From NCBI GenBank assembly GCA_947175875.1, contig CAMWON010000005.1:1-64000 (forward strand): 64,000 nt of DNA, read 5' to 3'. The notes beneath the pieces are model-generated. The model worked only from the letters and a program-made list of their open reading frames with translations, was not told where the DNA came from and made no database searches. This stretch comes from an uncultured Alphaproteobacteria bacterium (GTDB lineage: Bacteria > Pseudomonadota > Alphaproteobacteria > Rs-D84). Made by a program: the position numbers and the translations under genes. This document shows, one piece after another, positions 4,776-63,840 of this stretch (position 1 is the first letter of the stretch; every line of letters starts with the position of its first letter).

Positions 4776-4950
4776 TGCATCGGGTGATTACCGATGTGAG
4801 GCTTCAAAACCTCTTACGAGCTTTAACTCCACAACCGGTTGGAGGGTTGCGAATATATTGAATAAGCAACGCTATTCTCGTAGTAGTTTTGAACCTCCAA
4901 CCGCCCTTCATCACGGCGGTGTTTTTTATTTGCAAAAAACAACGGAGGAT
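4776..4950 (+). promoter_or_regulatory. structured leader RNA, subclass I, copy 1
   Basis: P0 CATCGG/CCGATG; hairpin GAGG-cTTCAAAA-CCTC; loop pairs TTTTGAA (4887-4893); TACGAG(4815-4820):CTCGTA(4877-4882); GGTTGGAGG(4837-4845):CCTCCAACC(4894-4902); terminator-like ACCGCC/GGCGGT plus T6; SD GGAGG 4944-4948. Confidence 0.85.
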
Positions 4951-4953
4951 AAA

Positions 4954-5232
4954 ATGCAAATATATGTTGATGCAAAATGTTTTGGCAATGCAATGCGGCA
5001 TGGACGCAGCAATGCCGGAATAAAAAAACGCGATGTTGCGAAGATTTTTGGAATGACAGCGCATGATTATAATCGTATCGAAGCGGGACGCAAAATATGG
5101 CCGGGGAACTTGATGCTGCGGCTGATGACATTGGCGTTTTTGCAACTGCGCACGCGGCGTGTTAACGGTTCGTCTGGGATGAAAACATTACAGACCGACC
5201 CGGATGCGGCGATATTTGTTGATGCCGATTAA
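4954..5232 (+). CDS. small HTH (XRE-like) DNA-binding protein, 92 aa
   Basis: ATG preceded by GGAGG; KRDVAKIFGMTAHDYNRIEAGRKIWPG helix-turn-helix pattern; the track ORF starting at 4858 runs through the leader. Confidence 0.75.
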   Translation: MQIYVDAKCFGNAMRHGRSNAGIKKRDVAKIFGMTAHDYNRIEAGRKIWPGNLMLRLMTLAFLQLRTRRVNGSSGMKTLQTDPDAAIFVDAD

Positions 5233-16180: not shown

Positions 16181-16400
16181 TCTGAGCGGGGGCTTTCCCT
16201 GCTCGGGGTGTCGAAACCCGGAATACTGCGTTCAAACAAGAACGATAAAAAATTACTCCAACGGATTTATCCGGTTGGAGGGCTGTGAATAATGCGCATT
16301 TGTTGCGCACCAATAAGCACACTATACAGTATTATAGTTTCGAACCTCCAACCGCCTGAATTTTTTCAGCGGTTTTTCAATTCGCGAAAAAAAGGAGGAT
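16181..16400 (+). promoter_or_regulatory. structured leader RNA, subclass I, copy 2
   Basis: P0 GAGC../..GCTC; hairpin CGGG-gtgTCGAAA-CCCG; loop pairs TTTCGA (16338-16343); AATACTG(16222-16228):CAGTATT(16327-16333); CTCCAAC(16256-16262), GGTTGGAGG(16273-16281), CCTCCAACC(16345-16353); AACCGC/GCGGTTTTT; SD GGAGG 16394-16398. Confidence 0.87.
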
Positions 16401-16404
16401 TTGA

Positions 16405-16884
16405 ATGAAAACAATCATAATCAGCGGCCTGTCAGTCATCGCCGCGTTCACACAGGCGCATGCCGAATACAATTGTTGTGGAAAATGCCCGTACGGCACC
16501 AGCGCATCCGTATGCACGGAAAACTGTTGTCACGCAAAATACGGCGTAATAGGGGGACAAACAAGATACAGCGACCCGGACAATAACGGCGTAATCACCA
16601 TAACAAAATACACCGACACAGTTACATGCGCCACCAGCGCCAGTGGCTCAAATTTTGTCAGATGCGGCGTGCAAAATTCTTACATCTGCGCCCAGGGCTA
16701 TTACGGCTCACCAACACTGCTTAACAAAACTTGCACAAAATGTCCGTCATCCGGCGGCGTCGCCGGAACAACAACCGGCACCGGCGCAACGAAAATAACG
16801 GAATGTTATATCCCGGCGGGCACTGCATTTTCAGACACCACCGGCGCCGGCACATATTCGGAAAACTGTTATTACAGCGAATAA
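16405..16884 (+). CDS. secreted Cys-rich protein (GYYG / CYxPxGTxFSDTTGxGTY family)
   Basis: Signal peptide MKTIIISGLSVIAAFTQAHA; GYYG..C..CP; C-terminal TECYIPAGTAFSDTTGAGTYSENCYYSE. Confidence 0.8.
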   Translation: MKTIIISGLSVIAAFTQAHAEYNCCGKCPYGTSASVCTENCCHAKYGVIGGQTRYSDPDNNGVITITKYTDTVTCATSASGSNFVRCGVQNSYICAQGYYGSPTLLNKTCTKCPSSGGVAGTTTGTGATKITECYIPAGTAFSDTTGAGTYSENCYYSE

Positions 16885-21121: not shown

Positions 21122-21259
21122 GTTTGAATAATAGCATTTGTCGGAATAGGTTCCGCTGCCGGTGGAATCGCTGAATGTCGGTCCCGACGGCAGATAACAT
21201 GACGTTATGGACGTTGCGCTGGCCACGCCGATAATGGCGGCGGTTAATAATTTTTTCAT
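21119..21259 (-). CDS. 46-aa minimal member of the Cys-rich secreted family (absent from the ORF track)
   Basis: Translated by hand: MKKLLTAAIIGVASATSITSCYLPSGPTFSDSTGSGTYSDKCYYSN; SD GGAGG 21265-21269. Confidence 0.75.
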   Translation of the reverse strand: MKKLLTAAIIGVASATSITSCYLPSGPTFSDSTGSGTYSDKCYYSN

Positions 21260-21261
21260 TC

Positions 21262-21470
21262 AAACCTCCTTTTTTCAAAAGAATGAAAAAACCGCTGAAA
21301 AATTCAGGCGGTTGGAGGCTTGAAACTATCTTATAAATAGCGGGCTTATTCAAAATATTCGCCACCCTCCAACCAGTTTTAGATTGGAGATACACATGCA
21401 TGCTATCGCGATGCATCGCGTTATAAGAGAGGTTTCAAGTCCTCATTCGGGGAATGCCCCCGAACAATAA
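21262..21470 (-). promoter_or_regulatory. structured leader RNA, subclass I, copy 3
   Basis: Minus strand: P0 TTCGGGG/CCCCGAA; hairpin GAGG-acTTGAAA-CCTC; loop pairs TTTCAA(G) (21319-21325); TCTTATAA:TTATAAGA; CTCCAATC, GGTTGGAGG (21366-21374), CCTCCAACC (21310-21318); AACCGC/GCGGTT; SD. Confidence 0.87.
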
Positions 21471-41793: not shown

Positions 41794-41870
41794 CGGAGTG
41801 TAGCTCAGTCTGGTAGAGCGCTGCGTTCGGGTCGCAGAGGTCGTAGGTTCGAATCCTGTCACTCCGACCA
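41794..41870 (+). tRNA. tRNA-Pro (anticodon CGG)
   Basis: Cloverleaf by eye: CGGAGTG/CACTCCG acceptor, CTGCG-TTCGGGT-CGCAG anticodon arm, GTTCGAATC T-arm, CCA encoded. Confidence 0.93.
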
Positions 41871-42041: not shown

Positions 42042-42135
42042 TATATTTAACCGCCCATTGTGGCGGTTGTTTTTTTCTTGATATTGTGTACGAGATTTAT
42101 TCATTGTCTTTATAAATTTATTTTTTTATAATACC

Positions 42136-42395
42136 CAAGAATTCACAGGGATCTGAATTCAGGGACGTAAGAAATCCCATACAACATCGATGCAGTAATG
42201 CATTGAATCCGCACAATAGCGGCGCAAATGCGCCCGTTATTATATACCCCGCACTTAAACTGTCGGGGAGCCGTCGGCTATACCACAGGGCATGCCCAAA
42301 GGCCGACGGGGTCATTATGTTGTATGATTTTCTTAACTCCCCGACTGCCAATTCCCTTGGCGGTCATTTGTTTTTACCAAACAAAAAGGAGTTGG
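42136..42395 (+). promoter_or_regulatory. structured leader RNA, subclass II, copy 1
   Basis: GGGA-cgtAAGAAA-TCCC hairpin; loop pairs TTTCTT (42329-42334); CATACAACAT(42178-42187):ATGTTGTATG(42317-42326); GTCGGGGAG(42262-42270):CTCCCCGAC(42337-42345); GACTGCC/GGCGGTC; SD GGAG; TTGTCT-N17-TATAAT promoter upstream. Confidence 0.88.
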
Positions 42396-42398
42396 AAA

Positions 42399-44635: not shown

Positions 44636-45421
44636 ATGAAAAAGTTCGTATTAACATCTTTGATGGCTGTGTTCGCGGTTTCCGGCGCGCATGCGGCAAA
44701 TGTTATAAATGATAATCCGTTGTATCGTCCGGAGGCTGGTAAGTTTTACAGCATGACGTCTGTTGCCTCTCATACCAAGAACAGCAAAAACGTTGGTCTG
44801 GCAGAAGATTTTGGTTATGGTATCACGGACCGTTTGGCGGTTGGTGTTTCAACAACAGCGGCCCAGTCCGACTGGTTTGATATGTCTTCGTGGAACGATT
44901 TCGCATTTGGCGTAAATTATCGTGCGCTGGATATGGGCAACTGGAAAGGCGATGTCTTTGGTGCGTATACTGTAAATTCCATTTTGCCGTACCGTGGTTC
45001 TTTCCTGGACAAGGATGCAACATGGTATAACTGGACAGTTGGTGCGCGTGCCGGTTATGAAATGGCGGGTTGGTCGGTCGCTGGTCACATCGCATTTGAC
45101 TATGCGAATTCGGAATCCTTTAACTGGAATGATGAAGGAATTCATTCGTTGCGTGCCGGGCTGACAGGGTTGCTGTCGCTGAACTCTAACTGGAGCTTGG
45201 TTGCCGGTGTTGAATATAGCACAATCTTGGATGATGAAATCAATCATATGAAGATTGAGCATCCGGGTCAGTGGGATGGTACTTTTGGCGTGAACTATAA
45301 CATTGACTCTGACAAATTTGTCGGTGCGTATATTTCCAAGACAATGGATCATGACGCCGCCGGTGATTGGGATGTTGAAGACGGCTTTGGCTTTGGTGCC
45401 AAGTTCGGTATTCAGTTCTAA
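44636..45421 (+). CDS. outer-membrane beta-barrel protein
   Basis: Signal peptide; terminal GFGFGAKFGIQF. Confidence 0.72.
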   Translation: MKKFVLTSLMAVFAVSGAHAANVINDNPLYRPEAGKFYSMTSVASHTKNSKNVGLAEDFGYGITDRLAVGVSTTAAQSDWFDMSSWNDFAFGVNYRALDMGNWKGDVFGAYTVNSILPYRGSFLDKDATWYNWTVGARAGYEMAGWSVAGHIAFDYANSESFNWNDEGIHSLRAGLTGLLSLNSNWSLVAGVEYSTILDDEINHMKIEHPGQWDGTFGVNYNIDSDKFVGAYISKTMDHDAAGDWDVEDGFGFGAKFGIQF

Positions 45422-45431
45422 TTTGACTGTC

Positions 45432-45470
45432 AAAAAAAACACCCCCCGACCATCTTGGTTGGGGGTGTTT
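45432..45470 (+). terminator. Rho-independent terminator
   Basis: aaaaaaacaccccccgaccatcttggttgggggtgtttta. Confidence 0.85.
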
Positions 45471-63048: not shown

Positions 63049-63072
63049 AGCGCCCCAAACGGGGCGTTTTTA
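63049..63072. terminator. Rho-independent terminator between convergent genes
   Basis: agcgccccaaacggggcgttttta. Confidence 0.82.
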
Positions 63073-63570
63073 ATTTTGGTAATAACAGGCGTCCGTATAT
63101 GTGCCGCTGCCGGTGGTGTCGCTGAAAGTGGTGCCGGACGGCAGATAGCATGCGGTAATTGCGGTTGCGCCCGCCAGGGCGGTTGTGCCGTAAACGCCGC
63201 CCGATGACGGACAGCGCGTGCATGATTGCCCGCTGCCGTAATATCCCTTCTTGCACTGGTATTCGCATGAGGCTTTTATTGCGGTTGTTTTGCATCTTAC
63301 CTGATAATTTTGACCGCTGACGCTTGTCCATAAGGTGCCCGGGCACTCGGTCGGACAAGTCGCTGGCTCAATTGGATCTATCGGGTCGATTATTAGAGAG
63401 GAGCAGCCTGCCTGTGCGCATGTTTCACTGCTGCTGCGGCAGCAGTTTGTTTCGCCTTCCATAATCGGGCACATAACCGTGTATGCGCCGCCGCATGTGC
63501 GGGCGCCGGCATCGTTTGCCAGTATGATGCCGACAACGGCCCCGCATAATAAGGTAATTGTTTTTTTCAT
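63070..63570 (-). CDS. secreted Cys-rich family protein
   Basis: Signal peptide; CEYQCKKGYYGSGQSCTRCPSSGGVYGTT..ITACYLPSGTTFSDTTGSGTYTDACYYQN. Confidence 0.8.
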   Translation of the reverse strand: MKKTITLLCGAVVGIILANDAGARTCGGAYTVMCPIMEGETNCCRSSSETCAQAGCSSLIIDPIDPIEPATCPTECPGTLWTSVSGQNYQVRCKTTAIKASCEYQCKKGYYGSGQSCTRCPSSGGVYGTTALAGATAITACYLPSGTTFSDTTGSGTYTDACYYQN

Positions 63571-63572
63571 GA

Positions 63573-63840
63573 TTTCAAATCCCTGTTTTTGTGTTAAACA
63601 AAACGCCGCCTTGGAATTGGCGGCCGGGGATTTCAGAAAATCATAACATAAAATGACCCCGTGACTTTTGGGTAATCCCTGTTATATGGTCACGGATCCC
63701 CGACCGGTTAGAATCGGGTGATATAAAACACACGGCGCATCATTGCGCCGACGTATTTTGTCGGATTCAGTGCGTACCACCGCACCGTTATGTTATGGGA
63801 TTTCTGAGGTCCCTGAGCCAACATCCCTGTTGATTCAGTG
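63573..63840 (-). promoter_or_regulatory. structured leader RNA, subclass II, copy 2
   Basis: Minus strand: CAAC-agggat-GTTG; GGGA-cctCAGAAA-TCCC; loop pairs TTTCTG; CATAACATAA:TTATGTTATG; GGTCGGGGAT:ATCCCCGGCC; GCCGCC/GGCGGC; GGGATTT SD region; TTTACT-N17-TATACT upstream. Confidence 0.88.

Follow-up and report, generated by a model that had tools for sequence, protein, structure and literature searches.

The five leaders that precede genes in the 64-kb window (the whole stretch of DNA analyzed, 64,000 nucleotides) are probably antisense switches of the C4 type, as judged from sequence. Our evidence, all of it comparative, identifies them as folded-RNA leaders with a built-in antisense piece that could mask the start site of the gene that follows. 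The first-pass annotation had proposed a structured cis-regulatory RNA family with covarying helices, represented by five complete leaders and one partial copy. We read each complete leader in the sequence, at 4776(+), 16181(+), 21262(−), 42136(+), and 63573(−), and found the same order of elements and every one of the quoted c:c′, b:b′, and 2:3 helices in all five. The partial copy could not be identified: the sole additional motif match, 45444-45451(−), was considered as an extra leader and rejected because it lies in an ordinary terminator hairpin. The motif-like GGTCGGGG in window 45420-45460, minus strand, is part of this plain hairpin.

The leaders fall into two sequence types (Table 1). 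Type I (42136 and 63573) has GGTCGGGGAG as strand 2 and a P2 hairpin with TATAxAACA / AAAG, and type II (4776, 16181, and 21262) has GGTTGGAGG and a GAATA..AATAAG loop. In many copies, the GC hairpin between strand c and the module is followed by a T run and thus resembles an early terminator by sequence; the terminator-like hairpin near the 3′ end is missing from some relatives (for example, L017). At Rfam gathering thresholds, the whole window yields only one tRNA; a tRNA gene (RF00005) lies at 41794-41867, just 5′ of the 42136 leader. Lowering the threshold for the 42136 leader gave nothing convincing. No Rfam riboswitch family matched the window leaders (at gathering, and for 42136 also at low threshold), in agreement with the first-pass annotation, which had recognized no known riboswitch.

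Table 1. Positions of the leaders, their parts, and the adjoining genes in the window
Feature	Positions	Strand	Basis or remark
Candidate promoter −10 of 42136 leader, TATAAT	42127-42132	+	Sequence
P0 hairpin	42139-42160	+	93.7% paired, compensatory changes, 41 leaders
hp1: GGGA/TCCC stem, loop b1 at 42168-42174	42162-42178	+	5′ strand and loop resemble start-codon region
Strand c (a1), partner c′	42179-42187	+	Both sides changed in 8/9 pairs; own versus swapped, 0/2000
GC hairpin between c and module	42221-42234	+	A4 consensus
Strand 1 (CCCCG), potential partner of strand 2	42247-42251	+	86% paired, covariation absent
3′ module, sRNA-Xcc1-like	42261-42346	+	Model R1, covariation
P1: strand 2 and strand 3	42262-42270 and 42337-42345	+	
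P2 core hairpin	42271-42309	+	
P3 hairpin, carrying c′ at 42317-42325	42312-42327	+	
b′	42329-42335	+	
Terminator-like hairpin, overlaps end of strand 3	42343-42365	+	Sequence
Shine-Dalgarno region AAGGAGTTGGAAA (b2), complementary to strand 3 and b′	42386-42398	+	
Gene after 42136 leader, 274 aa	42399-43223	+	N terminus signal-peptide-like; no Pfam family
Type II leader, module 4837-4902	4777-4956	+	Gene 4954-5232, small HTH protein
Type II leader, module 16273-16353	16184-16407	+	Gene 16405-16884, secreted-like
Type II leader, module 21310-21374	21257-21464	−	Short lipoprotein-like ORF from 21259
Type I leader, module 63622-63705	63568-63837	−	Gene 63070-63570, Cys-rich secreted-like

Covariation was evaluated in A4, a set of 41 nonredundant related leaders that were picked by consensus scoring and aligned by sequence alone, with the 42136 structure then imposed. 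Standard pairs make up 90.9% of the imposed structure, as opposed to 38-58% when partners are slid by 1-3 columns. Double-change cells number 202, versus 65 ± 7 in shuffles (0/500), and 27 pairs show double changes; the covariation score is 0.359, versus 0.173 shuffled and at most 0.134 slid. Double changes affect four of seven b:b′ pairs and eight of nine c:c′ pairs; the P3 hairpin is conserved, with no covariation seen in A4. A chance origin of the helices is excluded, and the proposed covariation, pseudoknots included, is strong with more homologues aligned; the structured cis-regulatory family as such is thereby fully supported.

Because relatedness inflates covariation counts, we also compared the pairing of each module with its own upstream region and with those of other loci. 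For 23 loci of the source genome, a′b′ pairs with its own upstream region at −21.4 kcal/mol and with that of another locus at −16.0 kcal/mol (0/5000 permutations). Pairing with the upstream decoy (own versus swapped) is also locus specific in Enterousia type I (−22.9 versus −17.9), Enterousia type II (−20.0 versus −15.4), plasmids and other alphaproteobacteria (−30.1 versus −22.7), and curated RF02221 loci (−35.9 versus −27.0), each at 0/2000. Strand 2:3 pairing is locus specific too (z = −9.5, type I). Strand 1 is able to pair with strand 2, a feature that the first-pass annotation missed; we rejected 1:2 as a proven switch helix since, while conserved, it lacks covariation and pairs no better with its own partner than with a swapped one.

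The start site of the following gene is a further partner. Of 81 type I modules, 74 are followed by a Shine-Dalgarno sequence and start codon, the median distance being 49 nt, compared to 18 of 76 on the other side; start codons were assigned by a simple rule, which for at least one leader (21262) took a TTG lying further upstream. Strand 3 and b′ are also complementary to the Shine-Dalgarno region, which had escaped the first reading: for type I, their pairing with the start-site region, own versus swapped, gives z = −5.2 (0/5000), a modest effect of 1 kcal/mol, and for type II it is weak (z = −1.9, n = 12). We found no pairing signal between c′ and the start-site region in Enterousia type I (z = −0.6); half of the C4 target contact is thus missing there, because the a′ loop has no start-site partner. 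Likewise overlooked was the likeness of hp1 to the Shine-Dalgarno region: at 21262, the hp1 5′ strand and loop (GAGGACTTGAA) are similar to the start-site region (GGAGGTTTGAA), and hp1 therefore reads as a decoy start site. The lowest-energy nested fold predicted for the 42136 leader has c′, b′, and strand 3 docked on hp1/decoy, with hp1 GGGA paired to strand 3 and the Shine-Dalgarno region free. Of 28 anchored leaders, 22 have a TATAAT-like −10 hexamer that starts 11-12 nt 5′ of P0.

We propose that the promoter just 5′ of P0 would produce one transcript carrying the decoy (hp1 with loop b1, then strand c/a1), the antisense module, and the gene start site. Within the module, P2 and P3 would be enclosed by the 2:3 helix (P1); the P3 loop would carry c′ (a′), and b′ would lie between P3 and strand 3. 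In the off state, b′ and strand 3 would lie on the Shine-Dalgarno region and block translation; in the on state, the decoy would capture b′, c′, and part of strand 3, or alternatively strand 2 would hold strand 3, and either would leave the Shine-Dalgarno region free. Helices, covariation, locus specificity, the match of b′ and strand 3 to the start site, and the positions of promoter and gene are evident from sequence, whereas the dominant state, the direction of switching, and the triggering signal are our inference. By analogy, the module might be cut out by RNase P as in C4, and a short decoy RNA might act in trans as IsrK does.

The first-pass annotation considered the family a candidate new one. 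This holds insofar as no Rfam family matches at gathering, but the 3′ module matches RF02221 (sRNA-Xcc1) below that score, and reciprocally. The RF02221 gathering score (53 bits) is not reached in the source genome, where the best match has 46.7 bits. Nonetheless, RF02221 aligns over its full length (positions 1-87) at 16 source-genome loci with E < 0.01, all below gathering; the aligned part is the 3′ half of the leader, from strand 2 to strand 3, about 66-90 nt. Low-threshold, full-length matches fall on the modules of L123, L165, and the 21262 copy of the window (35.2 bits); three plasmid copies also match. In the reverse direction, R1, a covariance model from 26 type I cores of these leaders only, recovers both sites of L237, a curated RF02221 locus (E = 4e-5 and 1e-4; R1 E-values are rough), and one locus (G557:C1:5110277) is matched by both models, exceeding gathering for RF02221. 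Annotation pipelines that use gathering cutoffs overlook all source-genome copies because the scores fall below the cutoff.

RF02221 exceeds gathering in 39 of 399 Pseudomonadota genomes. Read by eye, its curated loci have the same 5′ hairpin/hp1, b1, and c1 preceding the module and, at the start codon of the next gene, another copy, b2/c2; this gene starts about 35 nt downstream, just as a gene follows the module in our leaders. Pairing of c′ and b′ with the start-site region is pronounced in these loci (z = −9.9, 0/5000), unlike in Enterousia, where c′ lacks a start-site partner. Genes after RF02221 modules include BRO-N and Rha antirepressors and, by eye, SymE-like proteins. sRNA-Xcc1 was mapped as an 88-nt RNA (PMC2996969), which is the length of the module, and precedes symE in the Xanthomonas integron cassette of widest distribution (PMC12444791); the passages of PMC12189769 available to us treat it as a trans-acting sRNA, and the paper also names C4. 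The Rfam entry is typed as sRNA and covers the 87-nt module only; it does not extend to the conserved hairpin upstream, to b1/c1, or to the copies at the start codon (L217-L246).

Economy favors a C4-type reading; C4 (PMC5320573) and IsrK (PMC4825925) provide the experimental precedents. C4 contacts the mRNA through loops a′ and b′, of which b′ masks the start site, and is cleaved at P1 by RNase P (PMC5320573). We fetched C4 loci and read them by eye for the order of their parts: P0, hp1 with b1, a1, a U-run hairpin, P1/P2/P3, b′, and then b2 and a2 at the start codon. This order, that of phage P1/P7 C4 (RF01695) and c4-a1b1 (RF03163), is the same in our leaders and the RF02221 loci, and our modules begin with GG, as C4 does. 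The leaders have a1b1 upstream and a′b′ in the module, supported by covariation and by own-versus-swapped pairing in all sets, and type I has a b2 at the start site that pairs with b′, strand 3 taking part; pairing of a2 with a′ is seen in RF02221 loci but not in type I (z-scores above). The consensus and cargo of C4 differ from those of the leaders, and sequence models match in neither direction: RF01695 had no match in the source genome even at E = 10, R1 matched none of eight C4 loci, and no cross-match between RF02221 and C4 appeared. The C4 link therefore rests on layout rather than sequence, that is, on our reading of aligned loci by eye together with the RF02221 and Enterousia pairing tests. 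Rfam clan CL00128 holds C4 and c4-a1b1; RF02221 is linked to neither and belongs to no clan, although its layout equals that of C4. IsrK of Gifsy-1 (RF01394, no match in the window) is the upstream segment of a C4-type locus and ends in an early terminator; the read-through transcript of the locus is translationally inactive until this short RNA switches it on (PMC4825925). The short decoy RNA is a feature of IsrK; for our leaders, it would be a possibility only.

How far the module acts apart from its transcript separates the C4-type reading from a sub-case that overlaps it: a purely cis-acting leader whose module is never released, with a folding race, ribosomes, temperature, or a protein deciding between decoy and Shine-Dalgarno region. 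This is possible, though we lean against it; all parts lie on one transcript, Enterousia a′ pairs with the upstream strand alone, and the docked state is the predicted lowest-energy fold, but the related sRNA-Xcc1 module is a separate 88-nt RNA (PMC2996969) and RNase P cuts out C4 (PMC5320573).

A small-molecule riboswitch appears improbable. The first-pass annotation had called the hairpin between strands 2 and 3 aptamer-like, and the conserved P2 internal loop (TATAxAACA / AAAG) indeed exists; with the pseudoknots it would form an aptamer whose ligand sets 2:3 against 3:Shine-Dalgarno pairing. Such an elaborate pseudoknotted fold would fit a riboswitch, and many copies per genome would suit a second messenger. 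However, the cargo has no common pathway (surface proteins, glycosyltransferases, DNA methylase, HTH proteins, antirepressors, and SymE), the docking strands vary by locus with complementarity kept, as in antisense codes, and the layout equals that of C4. An antisense switch is likelier than a riboswitch because variability is highest in complementary segments that match each other at each locus, and because these segments count the region of the start codon among their partners; the leaders are probably not metabolite riboswitches.

It is still harder to see the module as a trans-acting sRNA for distant genes, as the literature has sRNA-Xcc1: there is a published 88-nt species (PMC2996969), and targets are predicted in the passages of PMC12189769 available to us, but its best partners lie in the flanks of its own locus (upstream in every set, at the start site for RF02221), and a gene starts at a fixed distance downstream. 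Least credible is a DNA-level element (integron attC, insertion element, or intron remnant) with no RNA regulator, given the constant order of promoter, strand, Shine-Dalgarno sequence, and ORF, the common G-U pairs in covarying helices, and the diverged copies with differing flanks, despite carriage of sRNA-Xcc1 in integron cassettes (PMC12444791) and copies on plasmids and viral contigs.

The source genome (953 kb, 9 contigs), that of a gut bacterium in the order of "Candidatus Enterousia," has ∼34 distinct copies by our own count of nonoverlapping places: DNA searches found 8 type I and about 16 type II copies, and searches with R1 and RF02221, the latter used for type II, found about 10 more. 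A model search of related genomes, as the first-pass annotation had suggested, yielded R1 matches in 172 of 201 genomes of the order, with at least 21 in the richest, and in 31 of 385 genomes of the class. By pattern scan, the carriers belong to "Candidatus Enterousia" and related lineages of animal guts and of termites; Enterousia is placed in order Rs-D84, with genomes near 1 Mb (PMC12306168).

In Enterousia, secreted and surface proteins are overrepresented among the leader cargo: a crude rule, applied to same-contig ORFs of 100 aa or more, predicts signal peptides for 27 of 53 leader genes versus 84 of 359 others (p = 9e-5). Most leader genes have no Pfam family; the remainder include glycosyltransferases, PMP repeats, outer-membrane barrels, small HTH proteins, and a C5 DNA methylase. 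Leaders L161 and L043 lie directly 5′ of C5 cytosine DNA methyltransferase genes. Five others (L088, L110, L131, L149, and L157) have an extra spacer and a start codon about 115-140 nt downstream, and their genes encode large autotransporter-like proteins (MSTYKHLADLLKICSVLPALAIMPAMA...).

C4-type switches may form a larger group than Rfam shows, with at least two sequence families (C4 and sRNA-Xcc1-like) of one architecture, which the Enterousia order converted from mobile-element control into ∼34 mutually distinct, genome-wide switches gating secreted and surface proteins, with strand 3 as a direct anti-Shine-Dalgarno; we find the case for this scenario evenly balanced. Independently of this scenario, the C4-type reading gives the orphan RF02221, so far treated as a virulence-related trans-acting sRNA, a testable cis mechanism, and the shared architecture ties sRNA-Xcc1 to the classical C4 system of phage P1. 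In a reduced-genome gut lineage, one kind of probable RNA switch precedes many genes, frequently those for secreted or surface proteins, and its matching codes keep the loci apart.

In viruses, R1 confirmed a copy in 3 of 24 pattern-matched contigs; the 42136 leader had no match in the phage collection, and a relative had one match. Our literature search found no paper on the qseM leader. In alphaproteobacteria, plasmid-borne copies neighbor genes for replication, conjugation, and quorum sensing. Among them, L209-L216 are full-length, unannotated relatives on conjugative plasmids, with rep, vir/trb, DUF2285, and AHL-synthase genes as neighbors; their strand 1 is also complementary to a segment just 3′ of strand 3, which may add a switch state.
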